A DNA stretch of 64,000 nucleotides from Syntrophus sp. (in: bacteria) (lineage in GTDB: Bacteria > Desulfobacterota > Syntrophorhabdia > Syntrophorhabdales > Syntrophorhabdaceae): assembly GCA_013824645.1 (NCBI GenBank), contig PNOF01000004.1:1-64000 (forward strand), written 5' to 3'. This document shows, in pieces, positions 19,471 to 34,039 of this stretch. Every line of letters begins with the position of its first letter. Positions within the stretch are counted from its first letter, which is position 1. Below the pieces are notes generated by a model. It did no database searches and was not told the DNA's origin. It saw only the letters and a list, made by a program, of their open reading frames with translations. The translations under genes were made by a program, and so were the position numbers.

Positions 19471-20637
19471 TTAATCCGCCTGCTTCCGCAAAAAGGTCGG
19501 AATATCGTATCTGTCATCGTCGATATCGACGCTGTCGCTCTTTGCTCTAATATCCTTGTAATCAACTTTATAGTCGATGGCTACCTTTTTCTTCATGAAA
19601 GAAGGGATATTCTCTTCGTCAAAGAGCCTTCCGTGGGCAAAGGTATCGGACTTGTCTTCGTCGGTCTGTACCTGTTCTTCAAAACCGGTGGCGATAACAG
19701 TGATTCTGATTGTGTCTTCCATGCTTTCATCGTAGACGAGTCCCCAGATAATCTTCGCCTGTTCGTGGGCCTGTTCCTGGATGAGTGTCGAAGCCTCGCT
19801 GACTTCGTTAAGGGTCATGTTTGTATTACCGGTAACGTTGATGAGCACACCGCGGGCCCCGTGGATCGAAATGTCTTCAAGGAGCGGGCTTGATATAGCC
19901 TTTTGCGCTGCTTCCCGTGCGCGGTTCTCGCCGTCTGCTTCACCGATACCCATGATGGCCATACCCCGTTCACTCATGATTGTTTTTACGTCGGCAAAAT
20001 CGACGACAACATGGCCTGAACCGACGATGAGGTCGGATATACTCCGCACCGCGTTAAGGAGTACCTCGTCGGCTTTCAGAAAGGCCTCCATAATGGTCAT
20101 GTGGCGACCGCCTATGGAGAGAAGCCGCTGATTTGGTATGGTGATGAGTGAGTCTACACGGCCCTTCAGTTGAAGAACGCCGTTTTCTGCCTGACTCATT
20201 CTATCTTTTCCTTCAAAGGCGAATGGTTTTGTGGCTATTGCTACCGTGAGTGCGCCTACTTCTTTTGCAATTTCGGCAATGACCGGTGAGGCTCCCGTCC
20301 CTGTGCCGCCTCCGAGCCCACAGGTAATGAAGACCATGTGTGCGCCCTTCAGGTGATCCTTAATTTTGTCGATGTCTTCAAGGGCTGACTTTTTTCCTAC
20401 TTCGGGGTTTGCCCCTGCGCCAAGACCCTCGGTAAGCTTTGTGCCGATCTGGATCTTCAAGGCCGCTTTACAGGTGCTCAGGGATTTTACATCCGTGTTG
20501 ACGGCGATAAATTCGACGCCCTGAATACCTGCATCGACCATGTTGTTCAAGGCATTACAACCACCGCCCCCTACTCCCACGACAATGAGTTTTGCTGAAA
20601 AACCATTTGTCTCATCCATATAGAACATTGCACTCAC
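19471..20637 (-). CDS. ftsZ: Cell division protein FtsZ
   Basis: 388 residues from GTG at 20637, which has AGGAGG 6 bases upstream; a longer frame to 20700 would overlap ftsA. The tubulin-like GTPase domain begins [20 protein letters not shown] and contains the signature [13 protein letters not shown] near residue 105, with the T7 loop NVDFAD-like segment [12 protein letters not shown]. The acidic linker ends in the conserved tail [10 protein letters not shown], which contacts FtsA. FtsZ forms the cytoplasmic Z-ring. It ends the dcw cluster, 10 bp after ftsA. Confidence 0.97.
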
Positions 20638-20647
20638 CCCGCACCTC

Positions 20648-21892
20648 CTAAAAAATTTCTTTAAACCATTCACCCATTCTATTGAGCAATTTCTGACCAC
20701 TGAATAAGCGTTTCATCGACCTTCCCGCATCGAATCCCCGCCGCCTGCCCTTTGTATTTTTAAAACCATAAATGAGAAGTCCTACCCCCGTTGCATATGC
20801 CGGGTTGTTGACGACGTCCACAAGACCGCCCACCCCCATGGGGCTCCCTCTTCGCGCCGGAAGGTTGAAAATACTCTCTGCAAGTTCCGGCATACCTTCA
20901 AGATTGGCGCATCCTCCGGTTATGATAACACCCGATGCGAGAAGTTTTTCCTGACCTGATTTTTTAATCTCTTCGTAAATGAGCCCTGCCACCTCTTCAA
21001 CTCTCGGTTCGATAATATCGGCAAGGGTTTTTCGCTGGAGGGTCCTTGGTTTTCGTCCCCCGACGCTGGGTACTTCAATGGTTTCGTTGGCGCCCACCAT
21101 GTTTGAAAATGCGCATCCGTATTTTTTCTTTATCTTTTCGGCATCGTCGATGGGTGTCCGAAGCCCGATTGCTATGTCGTTGGTAATACTGTTGCCGCCG
21201 AAGGGCAGCACTGATGTATATTTAATGCTCCCGTTTGAGAATACGGCGATATCACTTGTTCCGCCGCCAATATCGACGAGAGCGGCGCCGATCTCCTTTT
21301 CTTCCGGTGTAAGTGTTGCCTCAGCGGAGGCGAGCTGACCGAGGATAATATCGTCGACGGTGAGGCCCGCGAGTTTGCAGCACTTAATAATGTTCTGTGC
21401 CGATGAAATATTGCCCGTTACAATATGCACCTTTACTTCGAGCCGGACCCCTGTTATGCCAACGGGGTCTTTGATCCCGTCCTGGTCATCGACAATGAAT
21501 TCCTGGGGGATTACATGAATAAGCTCTCTGTCTGCGGGAATGGCAACTGCCTTTGCCGCGTCGATTGCCCGTGCGATGTCTTCGGCTTTAACCTCTTTAT
21601 CCTTTATAGCTACAACGCCGTTACTGTTAAAACTCTTAATATGCCCGCCGCCGATGCCCGCAAGGCATGAGTCGATCTTAATACCGGCCATAAGCTCGGC
21701 CTCTTCAACAGCCTTCTTTATGGAATTTACCGTGCTGTCCATATTGACCACAACGCCTTTTCTTAAGCCTGTGGAAGGATGAGAGCCGATACCGACGATG
21801 CTGACCTTGCCTTCGGAGCCCTTTCCCACCACGACGCATATCTTGGTCGTACCAATATCGAGCCCTACGAGCAGTTCATCATCTTTTACCAT
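20648..21892 (-). CDS. ftsA: Cell division protein FtsA
   Basis: 414 residues with the actin-like fold: LLVGLDIGTTKICVVVG (phosphate 1), ALVDIGGGTSDIAVF (phosphate 2) and IITGGCANLEGM (adenosine motif). The 1C domain insert typical of FtsA lies between residues 80 and 165. The C-terminus LLNRMGEWFKEIF is an amphipathic membrane-targeting helix. FtsA anchors FtsZ to the membrane and passes the division signal to the periplasmic subunits. Its ATG starts 1 bp after the ftsQ stop. Confidence 0.97.
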   Translation of the reverse strand: MVKDDELLVGLDIGTTKICVVVGKGSEGKVSIVGIGSHPSTGLRKGVVVNMDSTVNSIKKAVEEAELMAGIKIDSCLAGIGGGHIKSFNSNGVVAIKDKEVKAEDIARAIDAAKAVAIPADRELIHVIPQEFIVDDQDGIKDPVGITGVRLEVKVHIVTGNISSAQNIIKCCKLAGLTVDDIILGQLASAEATLTPEEKEIGAALVDIGGGTSDIAVFSNGSIKYTSVLPFGGNSITNDIAIGLRTPIDDAEKIKKKYGCAFSNMVGANETIEVPSVGGRKPRTLQRKTLADIIEPRVEEVAGLIYEEIKKSGQEKLLASGVIITGGCANLEGMPELAESIFNLPARRGSPMGVGGLVDVVNNPAYATGVGLLIYGFKNTKGRRRGFDAGRSMKRLFSGQKLLNRMGEWFKEIF

Positions 21893-21893
21893 T

Positions 21894-22595
21894 TTACCCC
21901 TTCCTTTCCTGGATTATGGCGCCTTTTTCAAACCTGGCATCAATACATTTTATGAGAAGTCCTCTCTTTTTGGCATCTTCGAGGACAGTGAGCGCCCGTG
22001 TCAGTCTTTTTTTCTGTTCTTCTTTTCCGAGGATGATCTCCACAGGATCATCAAGCCCGAAGATAGTAATGTTGCCCTCGTTGTAGGCAACTTCCGATAC
22101 CCGCTCTTTCTTGATGACACCTTCCGCGATCCATCTGTTTATTTCTTTAAAAAGGCTCTGAACGTCGCTTTTTTCCCTGGCATTTATGATGTAGAGTCCC
22201 TTTGTTTCTTCTTTTGCGAGCTTCCGGTATGGGCTGCCGTACTCATCGAGGACGTAAAGGTCCCCGCCATGATCGATCCAGAGAGCCGAGGGTATTTTTT
22301 CCTTCACATCAATGACAATAGAAAAGGGATAGACCCTTTTTATCCTTACCTCTTTAACGAATGGGTGCTCAGAGATGATATCCTTCATCTTCACTACATC
22401 GATTTTAAGGAGGCTTTCTTTTAAGAAGGGAGATATTTTCCCCATCACTTCTTTATCGTTTAGCTGGCTGATCCCGTTTATCTTCACATTCTGGAGAAAG
22501 AAAAAGGGTTCCTTTTTCGAGAAGAGATAGACAATGGAAAGCATGGAGAGAATGCAGACCGGTATCAGAAAGAGCATGTAGAGGATTTTTTTCAT
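21894..22595 (-). CDS. ftsQ: Cell division protein FtsQ (POTRA domain)
   Basis: 233 residues with one N-terminal transmembrane helix (ILYMLFLIPVCILSMLSIVYLF) and a POTRA domain: FFLQNVKINGISQLNDKEVMGKI... HPFVKEVRIKRVYPFSIVIDVKEKIPSALW. FtsQ links FtsL/FtsB to the septal synthase in the periplasm. It is a little short, as often in this lineage. The ATG overlaps the ddl stop by 4 bases. Its presence argues that the divisome is otherwise conserved, although FtsI and FtsW look degenerate here. Confidence 0.93.
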   Translation of the reverse strand: MKKILYMLFLIPVCILSMLSIVYLFSKKEPFFFLQNVKINGISQLNDKEVMGKISPFLKESLLKIDVVKMKDIISEHPFVKEVRIKRVYPFSIVIDVKEKIPSALWIDHGGDLYVLDEYGSPYRKLAKEETKGLYIINAREKSDVQSLFKEINRWIAEGVIKKERVSEVAYNEGNITIFGLDDPVEIILGKEEQKKRLTRALTVLEDAKKRGLLIKCIDARFEKGAIIQERKG

Positions 22596-24389: not shown

Positions 24390-25747
24390 ACCGTTTTCAG
24401 TCTCTCATCTATTTTGTAGATGTCGCCGGCGCCGAGCGTGACGATGACATCACCTTTTTGTGCAATCTCAAGGATCTTCTCTGCTGTTTCTTCTTTTGTG
24501 GCCGCAAATAATACATTTTTGTGACCGCTTGCCCGTATCTTTTTAGCAAGATTTGCTCCCGTTACCCCCTCTATTTTATCTTCCGAGGCAGCGTAAATCT
24601 CGGTGACAATGAGGATGTCCGCTTCATTAAAGGAAGAGACGAATTCATCCATAAGCGCCTTGGTCCTTGTGTAGCGGTGGGGCTGAAAGGCTACGACGAT
24701 GCGGCCCTTCGACATTTGCCGGATGGCCGAAAGGGTTGCCCTTACCTCTGTAGGGTGATGGCCGTAATCGTCAATGAGTTTTGTGTCCCCGTCCCACTTA
24801 ACCTCCAGCCTCCTGTGGATACCGGAGAAATTTTGCAGGGCTTCTTTAATTGTCGCAAAAGGTATGTCGAGTTCGATGCAGACACCGCATGCGGCAAGGG
24901 TATTGACAACGTTATGAACACCGGGAAGAGCAAGGGTGATTTCACCCAGCTCGTATCCTTTGTAGATGACCTTGAATTTTGTGGTAAAACCCTCATAGGT
25001 GATACTTTCCGCCCGGAGATCGGCCTGTTTTGAGAGGCCGTAAGTCATATATCGTCTCTTCAACAGAGGAATGAGACTCTGGAGATTGGCATTGTCGATG
25101 CAGATGATGTCAAGACCGTAGAAGGGAACTTTATTGAGAAAGGCAGTAAAGGCGGTCTTGATCTCATCCAGGTCCTTATAGAAATCAAGATGCTCAAGAT
25201 CGATGTTTGTGACCACGGCGATAGTGGGGAAGAGAAGCAGAAAGGTGCCGTCGCTTTCATCGGCTTCTGCGACAAGAAACTTGCTGCCTCCCAGTTTTGC
25301 ATTACTGCCGAGACTGTTCAGCTTGCCTCCGATAACACAGGTAGGGTCAATTCCCGCATGACCGAGAATGGTGGAAATGAGAGACGTTGTCGTTGTTTTT
25401 CCATGAGCGCCGGCTACGGCGATGGAGTATTTCATCCTCATAAGCTCGGCCAGCATCTCTGCTCTCTGGATAACGGGGACGAAAAGCTCCTTTGCCTTTC
25501 TCACTTCCGGGTTGTCTGTCCTGATCGCCGATGAGATAACGACCACATCGGCGTCGATGATGTTTTCTTCTTTGTGTCCGTAGAATATCTGGGCGCCGAG
25601 TTTTTCGAGACGTTCGGTTATATCCGTTTTTCTCATATCAGAGCCGGTTATTTTAAAGCCGAGGTTTAAAAGGACCTCAGCAATGCCGCTCATTCCGATA
25701 CCGCCGATACCGACAAAATGGACCCGTTCTATCTTATGAAAGACCAT
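24371..25747 (-). CDS. murC: UDP-N-acetylmuramate--L-alanine ligase MurC
   Basis: 458 residues from the ATG with GGAGG 8 bases upstream; the longer frame to 25762 begins with a TTG in that ribosome site. N-terminal IERVHFVGIGGIGMSGIAEVL binds UDP, SIAVAGAHGKTTTTSLIST is the P-loop, and IDDYGHHPTEVRATL is the Mur ligase C-terminal motif. It adds L-Ala to UDP-MurNAc. It overlaps murG by 14 bases. Confidence 0.96.
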   Translation of the reverse strand: MVFHKIERVHFVGIGGIGMSGIAEVLLNLGFKITGSDMRKTDITERLEKLGAQIFYGHKEENIIDADVVVISSAIRTDNPEVRKAKELFVPVIQRAEMLAELMRMKYSIAVAGAHGKTTTTSLISTILGHAGIDPTCVIGGKLNSLGSNAKLGGSKFLVAEADESDGTFLLLFPTIAVVTNIDLEHLDFYKDLDEIKTAFTAFLNKVPFYGLDIICIDNANLQSLIPLLKRRYMTYGLSKQADLRAESITYEGFTTKFKVIYKGYELGEITLALPGVHNVVNTLAACGVCIELDIPFATIKEALQNFSGIHRRLEVKWDGDTKLIDDYGHHPTEVRATLSAIRQMSKGRIVVAFQPHRYTRTKALMDEFVSSFNEADILIVTEIYAASEDKIEGVTGANLAKKIRASGHKNVLFAATKEETAEKILEIAQKGDVIVTLGAGDIYKIDERLKTVWSGKA

Positions 25748-26801
25748 GTGCAATTCCTCCAATTATCTGCTCCGCCGCATCGTCAAGGTAAATTTTCCCG
25801 ATGTTTTCCCCCAGTTCCTTCAGAATTTCCGGTTCTTTCATCAGATGCTTAATAGCACCGAAAAGCCTTTCCCCCGTTGCTTCTTCATTGGCTATCACAT
25901 ATGCGCCCCCGTTGCTTTCTACTTCGGAGGCATTTTTCCATTGGTGATTACCGGCGGAATAGGGATAGGGAATGAGAATGGCCGCTTTTTTGAAATAAGC
26001 CAGTTCAAAAATTGTTGTGGCTCCCGCCCTTGATATGACAACATCGGAAAGACTGTAGTATTTTGCCATCTCGTTGGTAAAAGGAAAGACTTCGTGCGTG
26101 ATTGAGGTTTCTTTGTAGGCCATGTTCACACGGTCGAAGTCCTCTGGTCCGGTCTGGTGATAGACGACTGTGTTCTTGTAGCTTTCAAGATGAGGTAAAA
26201 GTGTAAGCACCGCGTCATTAATACTTCGCGCTCCTCTGCTTCCGCCAAAGACAAAGATACCGAATTCACCTTCTTTTTTTGTCCCTTCATATTTTGCGAG
26301 CTTTTCTTGAAGGGGGTTGCCGGTGTGAAGGATTTTTTTCGTGGTGAGATATTTTTTTGTCCCTTCAAAGCTGATAAATGTCCCTTTGGTGATTTTTGAG
26401 AGAAATCTATTTGCAAGTCCCGGCTGGACGTTCTGTTCGTGGAGGAAACAGGGTATCCCGAGAAGTCTTCCCGCAATGATGATAGGAACAGAGGTAAAAC
26501 CACCCATGCCGAGAATGGCATCAGGTTTTTCTTCTCTTAAAATCCGTATGGACATCAAGATACCCTTTAAAAGACGTATAAGCGTCAGAACTTTATAAAA
26601 CGGTGATCTTCCCAGAAACTGATATGCCTCCACATAGAGGAGTCTGAAGCCAGCTGCGGGAATAATTCTCCCTTCAAGCCCCTGTCTGGTTCCGATGAAG
26701 ACTGCATCATTTTTCGTGTCCATTGCCTTCAGTGCTTCAGCGACGGCAATACCGGGAAAGATATGACCGCCGGTTCCGCCTGCAGAGATAGCCAATTTCA
26801 T
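25734..26801 (-). CDS. murG: Lipid II synthase MurG
   Basis: 355 residues, GT-B glycosyltransferase fold: AGGTGGHIFPGIAVAEAL near the N-terminus, LGMGGFTSVPIIIAGRLLGIPCFLHEQN, and the UDP-GlcNAc site ISRAGATTIFELAYFKKAAILIPYPYSAGNHQ. It transfers GlcNAc to lipid I on the inner membrane face. It overlaps the ftsW-like gene by 4 bases. Confidence 0.96.
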   Translation of the reverse strand: MKLAISAGGTGGHIFPGIAVAEALKAMDTKNDAVFIGTRQGLEGRIIPAAGFRLLYVEAYQFLGRSPFYKVLTLIRLLKGILMSIRILREEKPDAILGMGGFTSVPIIIAGRLLGIPCFLHEQNVQPGLANRFLSKITKGTFISFEGTKKYLTTKKILHTGNPLQEKLAKYEGTKKEGEFGIFVFGGSRGARSINDAVLTLLPHLESYKNTVVYHQTGPEDFDRVNMAYKETSITHEVFPFTNEMAKYYSLSDVVISRAGATTIFELAYFKKAAILIPYPYSAGNHQWKNASEVESNGGAYVIANEEATGERLFGAIKHLMKEPEILKELGENIGKIYLDDAAEQIIGGIAHGLS

Positions 26802-27586
26802 GAGCGCTCCCCTTCACCCTTAAGCATAACGCCTATCAAGGGGCTTACAAGAACAAGGAGTATGACGGGCTGGTAGAGAAGCCCCGTGGATAGCTTCATG
26901 CCAAGGACCATGAGTAAATCGAGAGCAATATACAAAAAACCGAAGAAGGGCAGCATTTTTATAAAGGTATTTTTCTTCATAAACATGGCAAAGCTTGTAA
27001 CGAGAAAGGCGAATGAAGAGGAAAGAAGGATATACTTATCGATGCTCCCGAGACTGCCGAAGCCGTTCCCGAGGATATTCCCGCTCTGTTTGTAAAGGAT
27101 GATACCGGCGATGAGAGTATATCCAGCGATGAAGGGGATCATGGCAATTCTGTCGAGAATAAAAAGCACAAGTATGATCGCCAGCGCAAAAGAAACGATA
27201 AAAAGGAGCTTCCCTGTTATAAAGAGGTTGAAGGAAGATGAGAAAAAGAGTATTGAGAGAGCCGTAAGTTCCTTAAAGAATTCTTTTTGTTTCTCTTCCA
27301 TGCTCACGAGGTAGAAGGTGATACTGTAGAAAGAGAGAAATACGATAGCGACCTGCGCAGGATATACGATATGGATTTTAGGGTAGACAAAGAAGAGGGC
27401 GGTTACGAGTAAGGACAGAATGATGAAGGGGTATTTCATCCCCTCAATATAACGGGAGGGTGTGCGGTAGATTGCATATATGGAAACAGCGCCTCCAATG
27501 ACGAGAAGTATCTTCACAAGATTGAATTCTCTGAAGAAACTATAGAGTAAAAGCATTGCTGTGAGAGCGATTAAGGCCTTTTTCAT
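26798..27586 (-). CDS. Shortened, apparently catalytically dead FtsW-like (SEDS) membrane protein
   Basis: 262 residues in the ftsW slot between murD and murG, overlapping both by 4 bases. I count about ten hydrophobic segments, the number in SEDS proteins, but FtsW is normally 360-400 residues and the loops here are very short. A faint SEDS echo remains: GNILGNGFGSLGSIDKYILLS resembles the GG..GxGxG...YLP stretch, and the end STGLLYQPVILLVLVSPL resembles the region that should read TGLLPxTGxPLPFxSYGGSS. The conserved Asp and loop motifs for lipid II polymerisation are not visible. It may be a pseudo-SEDS scaffold or an unrelated membrane protein; a glycosyltransferase role is doubtful. Confidence 0.7.
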   Translation of the reverse strand: MKKALIALTAMLLLYSFFREFNLVKILLVIGGAVSIYAIYRTPSRYIEGMKYPFIILSLLVTALFFVYPKIHIVYPAQVAIVFLSFYSITFYLVSMEEKQKEFFKELTALSILFFSSSFNLFITGKLLFIVSFALAIILVLFILDRIAMIPFIAGYTLIAGIILYKQSGNILGNGFGSLGSIDKYILLSSSFAFLVTSFAMFMKKNTFIKMLPFFGFLYIALDLLMVLGMKLSTGLLYQPVILLVLVSPLIGVMLKGEGERS

Positions 27587-28914
27587 AGCGACTCCACGAT
27601 CCTTCGGAAAGTATTTCCCCTGTCTTTATAGCTTTGAAACATGTCAAAGCTGCTGCACATGGGGGAAAGAAGCACTATATCACCGGTTTCAGTGATCTCC
27701 TGTGCTTTTCTGACTGCTTTTTCCATAGTATCTTCAGCGTATGTCTTCACGCTGCCCCCCAGTTCCCTGATGATTTTTTCTTTTGCTTCGCCGATGACTA
27801 TGAGGGCCTTTACCTTCCCGGCAACTTCCGTAATTGATTGATAGCTGCCGCCTTTGTCTTTGCCGCCGGCAATAAGGACAATCTTTCCGTCCATACTCTC
27901 AAGGGCCCTTTTCGTGGCACCCACATTTGTTGCTTTTGAATCGTTGTAGAACCGTACGCCTCCCATTGTCCTTACATGTTCCACCCTGTGGGAAAGTCCA
28001 TTGAACGCTTTGAGGACATCCTCAATGACTGCCTGTTCAATATTGTATATATGTGCTGTCAACAGGGCTGTGAGGATATTCTCTGTATTATGTATGCCGA
28101 CAAGAGGAGAAATATCACGTTTGTAGATAAACTCATGTCCCCGGAGCCTCACATAGAGACTGCCGTTTTTCGTAAAGGCCCCCTCGCTTAGCTCCTGGAC
28201 CGTCGAAAAAGGAAGGATCTTCGGTTTCCCCTTTATGACCGGCAGTATGTTTGTATTGATAAGGGCGTAGTCTTCTTCTCCCTGATTTTCAAATATCCTG
28301 TATTTTGCTTCCTTATATTCTTTGTAGCTGCGATACCGGTCGAGATGGTCTTCGGTAATATTAAGGAGGATTGCCGTATTGGGCCGGAAAGCCTCGATAG
28401 TTTCAAGCTGAAAGCTGCTTATTTCGAGGACCACATGAGGAGCTGGTCTTCCCTCGGAGACGTAATTGATAAGGGGATTGCCGATATTTCCCCCCACAAA
28501 TACATTCCCGAATGCCTTTTTAAAGATCTCTCCGATGAGGGTTGTTGTCGTAGTTTTTCCATTTGTTCCTGTGATGGCAATGATCGGTTCTTTAATGAAG
28601 AGAGACGCAAGCTCAATCTCTCCGATGACCCGTATCCCTTTCTGCCTGGCCTCTTTGAGCACTGGGAGTTCAGTGTCGACACCGGGGGAAAGTACGATCA
28701 TGGGGTAGGCCAGAAAATCTTCTTTCCGGTGAGGGCCGAAGTGACCTGTAAAGGGTATACCCTTAAGTCTATCTATGGCCGCTGCAAGGTCCCCTTCCGG
28801 CTTTTCATCAGCAAGGGCAATCTGCCTCCCCGTGCTGTGAAGGAATTTCGCAGTTGCAATGCCGGTTGTCCCAAGCCCAACGATGAGGATTTTATCGGGC
28901 AGTGTCATGGGCAA
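27583..28914 (-). CDS. murD: UDP-N-acetylmuramoylalanine--D-glutamate ligase MurD
   Basis: 443 residues. KILIVGLGTTGIATAKFL at the N-terminus, PIIAITGTNGKTTTTTLIGEI (P-loop), and YNDSKATNVGATKRALESMDGKIVLIAGGKDKGG in the C-terminal domain identify MurD. It adds D-Glu to UDP-MurNAc-L-Ala in the cytoplasm. A 94-bp gap separates it from mraY and it overlaps the ftsW-like gene by 4 bases. Confidence 0.96.
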   Translation of the reverse strand: MPMTLPDKILIVGLGTTGIATAKFLHSTGRQIALADEKPEGDLAAAIDRLKGIPFTGHFGPHRKEDFLAYPMIVLSPGVDTELPVLKEARQKGIRVIGEIELASLFIKEPIIAITGTNGKTTTTTLIGEIFKKAFGNVFVGGNIGNPLINYVSEGRPAPHVVLEISSFQLETIEAFRPNTAILLNITEDHLDRYRSYKEYKEAKYRIFENQGEEDYALINTNILPVIKGKPKILPFSTVQELSEGAFTKNGSLYVRLRGHEFIYKRDISPLVGIHNTENILTALLTAHIYNIEQAVIEDVLKAFNGLSHRVEHVRTMGGVRFYNDSKATNVGATKRALESMDGKIVLIAGGKDKGGSYQSITEVAGKVKALIVIGEAKEKIIRELGGSVKTYAEDTMEKAVRKAQEITETGDIVLLSPMCSSFDMFQSYKDRGNTFRRIVESL

Positions 28915-31463: not shown

Positions 31464-32901
31464 GAAGGGCCTCCTCGATAGTCTCTCTGTCACTGAAATG
31501 AAAGGTATTTCCGCCTATTATCTGGTAATTCTCATGTCCTTTTCCTGCAACAAGGAGCACATCATCTTGCCCGGACATCCTTACCCCTTCCAGGATAGCG
31601 TCTTTTCTGTTTTCAATGACCTTACAGGAAGTGCTGTTATAGCCCTTTTTGATATCGGCAATAATGTCTGCCGGGTTTTCACTCCTGGGATTGTCTGATG
31701 TGATAATGGCAACATCAGCGAGGCTCGACGCAATGCCGCCCATAATAGGCCTTTTTGCCTTGTCCCTGTCGCCGCCGCAGCCGAATACGACGATGAGTTT
31801 CCCCTTCTTCAGGCCATTGAGGAGGGTGAGCACATTACTGAGTGCGTCCGGTGTGTGCGCGTAATCGACAAAAATGGAGATATTGCGGTCATTTTTAATC
31901 CGCTCCAGCCTGCCCGGGACGCCTTCCAGTTTTTCGACGCCTTCTTTTATCTTTTCATAAGGTATATTCGTTGCCACACCGTAGAGGGCGGAAGCAAGGA
32001 TATTTGAGGCATTGAAGATACCAATAAGTGGAGAGACGATGGATATTCTTTTATCCATAAGGGATACATCGAGCGTCAAACCGGTTATATCTTCACTGTA
32101 TTTAATGAGATGGGCGTCGGCATAGCCCTTGATGCTGTATGAAAGCGTTTCAATAGGGGCGCGGAGAACAAATTCCCGAACGTTTGGGTCGTCAATATTC
32201 AAAACAGCATATTTTTTCTCTTTTGGACTGTGCCTGAGATAATCTTCAAAGAGCAGCTTCTTTGCTGCTTTGTAATGTTCAATGTCGCCGTGATAGTCGA
32301 GGTGGTCATGAGTCAGGTTGGTGAAGATACCCACATCGAATTCAATACCTTCGACACGCCTCTGGTCGAGGGCGTGAGAGGATGTCTCCATGGCCACGTA
32401 TTTTACTTTTGATGCGTACATCTCTTTCAGGAGGCCCTGGAGCTCAATCGCACCGGGGGTCGTGTTCTCGGCCCTTAATACATGGCCGTCGTACCGGTAT
32501 GAGATGGTCCCGATGACGCCCGCCTCTTTTCCTACAGAACGAAGAATAGATTCAATGAGATATGTTATGGTTGTTTTTCCGTTCGTACCGGTAATACCGG
32601 CAATGTGCATATGTTTCGAGGGAAATCCATTGAATTTTGCCGCAATATGGCCAAGGGTTTTTGCTACATCTTTCACGACAATGACGCAGGGGAAAGGATA
32701 ATCCGTTTCATGATCAGTGACGAGTACACGTGCGCCCCCCTTCAGGGCATCATCGATGAATGAATCGCTCCGGGCAGTTGCAAAAAACAGGGAGCCTTCC
32801 CGTACGGTCCGTGAGTCTTTTGATATTGCCGTGATATCCAGGTTTTTGTCCCCTTTTATACTGACGACGGAGATATCTTTTATGAGGTCAGTGAGTTTCA
32901 C
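31450..32901 (-). CDS. murE: UDP-MurNAc-L-Ala-D-Glu--diaminopimelate ligase MurE
   Basis: 483 residues: ISKDSRTVREGSLFFA, GITGTNGKTTITYLIESIL (P-loop), TNLTHDHLDYHG, VDYAHTPDALSNVL, and the C-terminal DNPRSENP, the DNPR motif that selects meso-diaminopimelate rather than lysine. It adds the third residue of the stem peptide. This points to a DAP-type, Gram-negative-like wall. It overlaps the ftsI-like gene by 4 bases. Confidence 0.97.
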   Translation of the reverse strand: MKLTDLIKDISVVSIKGDKNLDITAISKDSRTVREGSLFFATARSDSFIDDALKGGARVLVTDHETDYPFPCVIVVKDVAKTLGHIAAKFNGFPSKHMHIAGITGTNGKTTITYLIESILRSVGKEAGVIGTISYRYDGHVLRAENTTPGAIELQGLLKEMYASKVKYVAMETSSHALDQRRVEGIEFDVGIFTNLTHDHLDYHGDIEHYKAAKKLLFEDYLRHSPKEKKYAVLNIDDPNVREFVLRAPIETLSYSIKGYADAHLIKYSEDITGLTLDVSLMDKRISIVSPLIGIFNASNILASALYGVATNIPYEKIKEGVEKLEGVPGRLERIKNDRNISIFVDYAHTPDALSNVLTLLNGLKKGKLIVVFGCGGDRDKAKRPIMGGIASSLADVAIITSDNPRSENPADIIADIKKGYNSTSCKVIENRKDAILEGVRMSGQDDVLLVAGKGHENYQIIGGNTFHFSDRETIEEALHVAP

Positions 32902-33740
32902 TGTTTACCAGACCTCCCATAAATCGTACAGTCAATGTCGCCGCGCACTTTTTCGTAGGGTTTCGGCTGCTGGTCGGTTACGATACCGCTCCCCACGAGC
33001 TTTATTTTGGAGGTCATCATAGATACCTTTTCGAGGGCCCCCTTCATGGGGAGATTGATGAGGTTCGGCATAACCCATTCGGTCTCCGCAGGCTGGCTAT
33101 TTATCTTAGCGCGTCCGCGTGTTTCAACTATCTCGAAGCCTTTTGACGTTTTTGCTATCTCAAAACCATTAGACACAAAAGGGAATAAATCTTTGTATTC
33201 ATCGGTAACGTGATTATCAAAACTGGCAAGAAGTGACTTTTTCTCGATGGTGTATTCTTTTCCGAGGATGATATCGCTGAGTTCGAGGTCGTCTTTTATG
33301 GATATACCATCTTTTTTGAGCAGGTGGAGGAGCTGTTTTTTTCCGATGATCCCCGCGATGCTTACGAGCCCGTCTTCGTCTTTATCTCTCAGAATATCGA
33401 AGGGTTTTTTGAAATCTGCCCGTGCATTCGTTTCTCCCTTAATCAGGATAAGTCCTTCTTTTTCGATAAGCCCTTCTTTTATTGCCGATAAGACTATGGG
33501 GATGGCGATGAAGAGTGACGGTTCTATGACAGTGCGCTCAGATGGGAGGTTTCGGACGGGATTACCCGAAGCTTCCCCTATTGCCGGAATGGCGACATTC
33601 AAGTTCTGAGGGACAGCAGCATGTCCGTCAAGGGTCCTTTTCATGGCAAACTTTTCAGTCAGGTTAAACACCATCGATATATACATAAGTCCTATGCATA
33701 CCAGGATAAAAAAGGCCTTTCGATTAGCCTTTTTGTTCAT
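32898..33740 (-). CDS. FtsI-like protein lacking the transpeptidase active site, with C-terminal PASTA domain
   Basis: 280 residues in the ftsI slot between ftsL and murE, overlapping both by 4 bases. A normal FtsI is 550-650 residues. One membrane helix (AFFILVCIGLMYISMVF) and a C-terminal PASTA-like domain (VMPNLINLPMKGALEKVSMM... VRGDIDCTIYGRSG) remain. In between, EPSLFIAIPIVLSAIKEGLI aligns with the EPGSTFKPF...LEEG helix of penicillin-binding proteins, but the catalytic SxxK lysine is replaced (SLFI). No SxN or KTG motif is visible, and the pedestal domain is largely missing. The short, coupled gene looks retained rather than freshly decayed. Probable role: structural partner in the divisome; septal transpeptidation must come from elsewhere. 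Confidence 0.75.
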   Translation of the reverse strand: MNKKANRKAFFILVCIGLMYISMVFNLTEKFAMKRTLDGHAAVPQNLNVAIPAIGEASGNPVRNLPSERTVIEPSLFIAIPIVLSAIKEGLIEKEGLILIKGETNARADFKKPFDILRDKDEDGLVSIAGIIGKKQLLHLLKKDGISIKDDLELSDIILGKEYTIEKKSLLASFDNHVTDEYKDLFPFVSNGFEIAKTSKGFEIVETRGRAKINSQPAETEWVMPNLINLPMKGALEKVSMMTSKIKLVGSGIVTDQQPKPYEKVRGDIDCTIYGRSGKQ

Positions 33741-34039
33741 CGCAGTACCAGCACCTCTTCTTCTTTCGGTTTCTTGAGCCCCAGCCGCTCTTTTGCTTTT
33801 AACTCCATGAACCTCGCCTGAGTAATGCCCGCCAGCTCTGTCTTCAGCCTGCTATTTGTTTCCATCACTTCCTTATCTTTCTTCAATGTTTCGATAAGGT
33901 CTTCTCTTAACTGATTGTGGGTGCTCATTATGAAAAAACCTATGAAGGCGAAGACAACGAGGATGCCGATAATAAGAAGAGCTGAATGGGTATGCCCATA
34001 GGCCATTTCTTTTTTTGCCGAAACATATCCCCTTGCCAT
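33737..34039 (-). CDS. ftsL: FtsL-like cell division protein
   Basis: 100 residues: a short cytoplasmic start, one membrane helix (SALLIIGILVVFAFIGFFI), then a coiled-coil stretch (QLREDLIETLKKDKEVMETNSRLKTELAG) and a tail RFMELKAKERLGLKKPKEEE typical of FtsL/DivIC. FtsL bridges FtsQ/FtsB to the synthase pair. It is assigned by this layout and by position between rsmH and the ftsI-like gene; sequence identity is always low in the family. Confidence 0.85.
   Translation of the reverse strand: MARGYVSAKKEMAYGHTHSALLIIGILVVFAFIGFFIMSTHNQLREDLIETLKKDKEVMETNSRLKTELAGITQARFMELKAKERLGLKKPKEEEVLVLR

Follow-up and report, generated by a model that had tools for sequence, protein, structure and literature searches.

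A likely FtsW descendant and an FtsI remnant, both without their catalytic motifs, in the division and cell wall cluster of Syntrophorhabdia

The stretch of DNA analysed here (the window) comprises 64,000 nucleotides of contig PNOF01000004.1 from Syntrophus sp. (class Syntrophorhabdia, Desulfobacterota; assembly GCA_013824645.1, positions 1 to 64,000) and carries a division and cell wall (dcw) cluster with unusual occupants at the positions of ftsW and ftsI. By its named relatives, the window belongs within or beside the family Syntrophorhabdaceae. In gene direction, the cluster reads mraZ–rsmH–ftsL–FtsI-slot gene–murE–murF–mraY–murD–FtsW-slot gene–murG–murC–murB–ddl–ftsQ–ftsA–ftsZ, in which mraZ, rsmH and murB are probable names. 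Apart from FtsL and FtsQ, the cluster genes owe their names to sequence, position and their conservation across related loci, not to a profile search. The FtsW-slot gene, the main subject of this analysis, is an open reading frame with an ATG start and no internal stops that overlaps both murD and murG by 4 base pairs. Comparison of the class with other Desulfobacterota placed this gene between murD and murG and the FtsI-slot gene upstream of murE. The murD–murG position was found throughout the class wherever the flanks could be read, except in genome G045, where murD was not found beside the FtsW-slot gene.

The initial annotation, made from the sequence alone, had described the FtsW-slot product as 262 residues with about ten hydrophobic segments and very short loops. 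The reading frame was confirmed, and the predicted structure contains 10 helices (residues 2–16, 23–41, 44–67, 77–95, 100–123, 129–143, 147–166, 181–202, 205–228 and 239–259) joined by very short loops; the longest, a 14-residue loop that links helix 7 to helix 8, has no conserved acid. The AlphaFold model is of low confidence (pLDDT 58.8, pTM 0.59). Eight residues are invariant in the family (Y52, P69, K105, N120, F199, F214, D223 in the ninth transmembrane (TM) helix, and G252), and Q239-P240 is near-invariant. SEDS proteins are recognized by motifs in their extracellular loops and by a catalytic aspartate in extracellular loop 4. The motifs GAxRW, QPSE, D[FY][IV]F and SYGG lie in or beside extracellular loops whose mutation inactivates FtsW of E. 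coli (PMC8765783). None of the four was present in any of 44 FtsW-slot homologues, in agreement with the initial impression that recognizable catalytic loop motifs are missing. Neither the protein nor its profile matched a family in Pfam, NCBIfam or PDB, and neither the protein nor 25 of its homologues matched PF01098 (SEDS/FtsW). Judged by the sequence features tested, the FtsW-slot protein is not a functional member of the SEDS family.

A trace of FtsW was detected by profile–profile comparison of the 44 FtsW-slot sequences with 28 FtsW proteins, which gave a score of 34.5 (P = 6.5e-4). FtsW-slot columns 29–148 align collinearly to FtsW 56–188, with a gap at the second extracellular loop of FtsW. 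The control scores were 14–16 for the RodA profile, about 20 for MraY and 18 for the reversed profile, and none of 300 block-shuffled FtsW-slot profiles reached 34.4 (maximum 25.7). Block shuffles replaced circular rotation, which preserves the matching segment and was therefore useless as a control. Subsets of the sequences on both sides keep a single FtsW alignment register, with scores of 19.5–34. Direct comparison of the FtsW-slot protein and its profile with RodA, including the RodA of the class itself, gave no match. The weak SEDS-like patches of the initial annotation survive as a profile-level match to FtsW at TM2–TM3 and at no other level. Because the match is collinear, specific to FtsW and unreached by the shuffles, descent of the FtsW-slot protein from FtsW is likely, although not proven.

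The identity of the partner is clearer. FtsI-slot proteins (248–345 amino acids) occupy the position between ftsL and murE in the class loci wherever it is readable, and their profile matches FtsI of other Desulfobacterota around the active-site SxxK (probability 97%, P = 4.4e-11) and does not match PBP2. Where FtsI has the consensus E-P-G-S-T-F-K, the FtsI-slot proteins have E-P-S-[FL]-[FL]-I-[AS]; the column of the catalytic serine holds serine in 2 of 36 proteins and phenylalanine or leucine in most, and that of the catalytic lysine holds lysine in none. The KTG region is gone, with KTG[TS] absent from all 36. At the C-terminus, the FtsI-slot proteins match the PASTA-bearing end of longer proteins, mostly of 540–690 amino acids, across most of the phylum, and PASTA was recognized in 21 of 25 members. 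The predicted structure of the FtsI-slot protein (pLDDT 76, near 90 over much of the soluble domain) ranks PBP3/FtsI transpeptidase domains first in a fold search (probability 1.00). From its sequence and model, the FtsI-slot protein is best read as a shrunken, catalytically dead remnant of FtsI, which bears out the initial suggestion that both partners are degenerate in the same cluster.

The FtsW-slot gene is a feature of the whole class. Homologues were found in 45 of 46 Syntrophorhabdia genomes, representing all 19 genera and three families, and in each of the 37 high-quality genomes; the sole genome without one is 66% complete. All genomes of the class are drafts, that of the window being 88% complete in 128 contigs. 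In one genome (G038, contig C61, locus L076, 2885–3600), the gene is split between two frames beside ambiguous bases, most likely through a sequencing or assembly fault. Outside Syntrophorhabdia, a search of 394 genomes of the phylum, 19 of them from the class, returned nothing but a 749-amino-acid frame that matched weakly over 48 residues. The ratio of nonsynonymous to synonymous substitution rates (dN/dS) in close pairs is 0.08–0.27, comparable to that of murG. Given this presence and these ratios, the gene is conserved and under purifying selection, and it is neither a chance reading frame nor a decaying gene.

The initial annotation had proposed that the pair lost catalysis together and stayed as a scaffold, and had named, as part of what would speak against this, an intact FtsW paired with an intact FtsI at another place. 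No such pair was encountered: canonical FtsW and FtsI were not found in the window's genome or in the survey of the class. The search for other SEDS genes, which the initial annotation had also suggested, yielded RodA beside PBP2 as the only universal SEDS protein of the class. This RodA keeps the SEDS motifs, is accompanied by MreD as well in the window's genome, and in the tree joins a RodA of another family, separated from 28 FtsW proteins of dcw clusters (support 100/100). Most genomes of other Desulfobacterota have two SEDS proteins, and among their best 30 SEDS loci, 29 are dcw FtsW genes beside murD with murG or murC. Extra SEDS proteins (458–470 amino acids) beside a class B penicillin-binding protein (PBP; 616–677 amino acids) occur in G027 (L109, 6792–9979) and G029 (L110, 234–3415); their assignment as FtsW or RodA was rejected, since the tree places them as a long branch outside both groups. 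In G045, the end of contig C54 (L111, 4240–8048) carries the C-terminus of an FtsW, murG and most of murC. This fragment was not accepted as a genuine FtsW of the class because, within murC, GC content climbs abruptly from 0.56 to roughly 0.66; the FtsW-bearing end is probably an assembly chimera, or otherwise a horizontally acquired block.

Other enzymes that could build the septum are present. Apart from the extra pairs of G027 and G029, each genome of the class has one strong class B PBP match, adjoining RodA, and weaker transpeptidase matches that were read as class A by their lower score and their length and were checked singly in the window's genome. There, four transpeptidase proteins occur: PBP2 and three of class A, each of the three also with the glycosyltransferase domain GT51. 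At least one GT51 enzyme occurs in 46 of 46 genomes. In the 97% complete genome G040 (family f2, dcw cluster in L103), nothing was found beyond RodA–PBP2 and one class A PBP with GT51. This is the most reduced set of septal-synthase candidates in the class, and it narrows the candidates accordingly.

We consider it probable, at roughly two chances in three, that a radically shortened FtsW and a dead, shortened FtsI are kept throughout the class as a scaffold of the divisome while another synthase makes the septum. The FtsW-slot protein would be a descendant of FtsW that lost the SEDS polymerase active site. With its partner, it would form a non-enzymatic scaffold, membrane and periplasmic, of the FtsQ–FtsL(–FtsB) core of the divisome, and the pair presumably forms a complex with FtsQ and FtsL. 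D223 and Q239-P240, near the periplasmic side under the assumed topology, could provide a putative binding surface. The pair may place or activate the other synthase at the Z ring. A role as a scaffold or signalling core is the most likely one, since the pair has been retained under selection with FtsQ, FtsL, FtsA and FtsZ after its catalytic residues were lost. Because it lacks the residues for polymerization and cross-linking, the septal wall must presumably come either from RodA–PBP2, the only universal SEDS–class B pair, or from a class A PBP, which brings a GT51 glycosyltransferase of its own. A fuller version of this scheme, for which the chances seem evenly balanced, has a pseudoenzyme FtsW/FtsI pair in the FtsQLB core and either one RodA–PBP2 shared by elongation and septation or septation by class A PBPs. 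Under that version, which is itself an even call, scaffolding or signalling would have come apart from catalysis.

Several observations weigh against an inert descendant of FtsW. The FtsW profile is reached with a probability of a mere 27%, and the match is confined to TM2–TM6. The weakest subset, three f2 sequences, scores higher against MraY (27.6) than against FtsW. A fold search with the poor model returned neither a SEDS fold nor any credible fold. The invariant polar residues K105, N120 and D223, with the near-invariant Q239, could mean that some activity is retained.

The low profile probability, the absence of a direct match to RodA and the lack of any family or fold match would also fit non-homologous displacement, whereby FtsW was lost and its gene position, with possibly a role in division, passed to a membrane protein of ten helices that is not related to it. 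This is rather unlikely, as shuffled controls did not attain the weak match, which is collinear and FtsW-specific, and as the partner is clearly an FtsI remnant in place, which makes an FtsW remnant in place the simpler reading. The invariant polar residues and purifying selection could instead point to a polymerase that is minimal but active: a SEDS protein in reduced form, still able to polymerize lipid II through an active site of altered layout (for instance, D223 and Q239-P240). We regard such an enzyme as improbable: every SEDS motif is gone, including loop regions needed in E. coli FtsW (PMC8765783), the FtsI partner is dead and the class has other polymerases. Even less credence is given to the idea that the protein has nothing to do with division and is a transporter, such as a lipid II flippase, whose gene came to reside in the cell wall cluster. 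The protein has ten short helices, and the top fold matches of its model are nucleotide-sugar transporters, but these matches are not significant (E about 1, TM-score about 0.2) and the gene lies exactly in the slot of FtsW, beside a dead FtsI; MurJ is present in the class, so that no flippase role is required. That a normal FtsW is hidden by an assembly gap, a pseudogene or a missing contig, as the draft state of the window's genome might suggest, is refuted at the level of the class by the same arrangement throughout it, the 37 high-quality genomes included, by the dN/dS values and by the chimera-like GC jump that precedes the sole FtsW-like fragment, and is practically negligible.

The genes around the two slots are listed in Table 1. 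Relative to their counterparts in other Desulfobacterota, FtsL and FtsQ show greater divergence than the rest of the cluster (identity ratios 0.57 and 0.70, versus 0.80–0.95); such genes evolve fast in general, for which the ratio controls in part. Their divergence together would be expected if the FtsWIQLB core had been remodelled as a unit. FtsQ is also about 50 amino acids shorter than in other Desulfobacterota.

Table 1. Features of the dcw cluster in the window
Feature	Position	Strand	Remarks
FtsW-slot gene	26798..27586	minus	262 amino acids; ten predicted TM helices; without SEDS motifs
FtsI-slot gene	32898..33740	minus	280 amino acids; one TM helix, transpeptidase remnant, C-terminal PASTA-like domain
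murD	27583..28914	minus	upstream neighbour of the FtsW-slot gene, 4-base-pair overlap
murG	25734..26801	minus	downstream neighbour of the FtsW-slot gene, 4-base-pair overlap
ftsL-like	33737..34039	minus	100 amino acids; DivIC/FtsL family below cut-off; unusually diverged
ftsQ	21894..22595	minus	233 amino acids; POTRA and FtsQ/DivIB C-terminal domain; unusually diverged
ftsA	20648..21892	minus	named by sequence and position; orthologue in every complete dcw locus of the class
ftsZ	19471..20700	minus	named by sequence and position
probably mraZ			146 amino acids; first in cluster; named by sequence, position and related loci
probably rsmH			289 amino acids; second in cluster; named by sequence, position and related loci
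probably murB			298 amino acids; between murC and ddl; named by sequence, position and related loci

The FtsW-slot protein resembles FtsW (SEDS, PF01098) in its position between murD and murG, its ten predicted helices and the weak collinear match over TM2–TM6, whereas it is about 100 residues shorter, with loops nearly gone and neither SEDS motifs nor a Pfam match. Similarly, its partner shares with FtsI/PBP3 a gene location flanked by ftsL and murE, a single TM helix at the N-terminus and half of the transpeptidase fold, and with FtsI of other Desulfobacterota a C-terminal PASTA domain. It differs in length (248–345 versus about 570–680 amino acids), in the replacement of the catalytic serine and lysine and in the absence of the KTG region. 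In walled bacteria, FtsW–FtsI is generally regarded as the universal machinery of septal wall synthesis. The exception that the literature search turned up is C. difficile, together with some other Clostridia, and C. difficile is also the nearest precedent. Vegetative division of C. difficile proceeds without a functional FtsW–FtsI and uses the class A PBP1, and the SEDS protein and class B PBP of its dcw cluster have become the intact SpoVE and SpoVD used in sporulation (PMC10693644, PMC12539705). Like C. difficile, Syntrophorhabdia are walled, no functional FtsW–FtsI pair was found in the genome and another synthase would serve the septum; unlike in C. difficile, both dcw genes encode shrunken, motif-less proteins and the class is of Gram-negative type. 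In B. subtilis and S. aureus, the transpeptidase activity of FtsI is dispensable and FtsI can still be required in a structural or allosteric role, according to work cited in PMC12539705. There, however, FtsI retains the domain and serves to activate an FtsW that is itself active, whereas in Syntrophorhabdia the SEDS partner is motif-less as well. A limited literature search found no published account of FtsW and FtsI persisting in place as shrunken remnants, and a search on FtsW in Syntrophorhabdus returned nothing on the topic by title or abstract.

If the reading of a retained, non-catalytic pair is true, Syntrophorhabdia would be a second exception to FtsW–FtsI, one that spans a whole class and in which both relatives are motif-less yet remain under selection in their original positions. 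Testable predictions follow as to the synthase that makes the septum and the particular beta-lactams that would be expected not to block division. The FtsW–FtsI pair would then have a non-catalytic job that is separable in evolution from polymerization and cross-linking.
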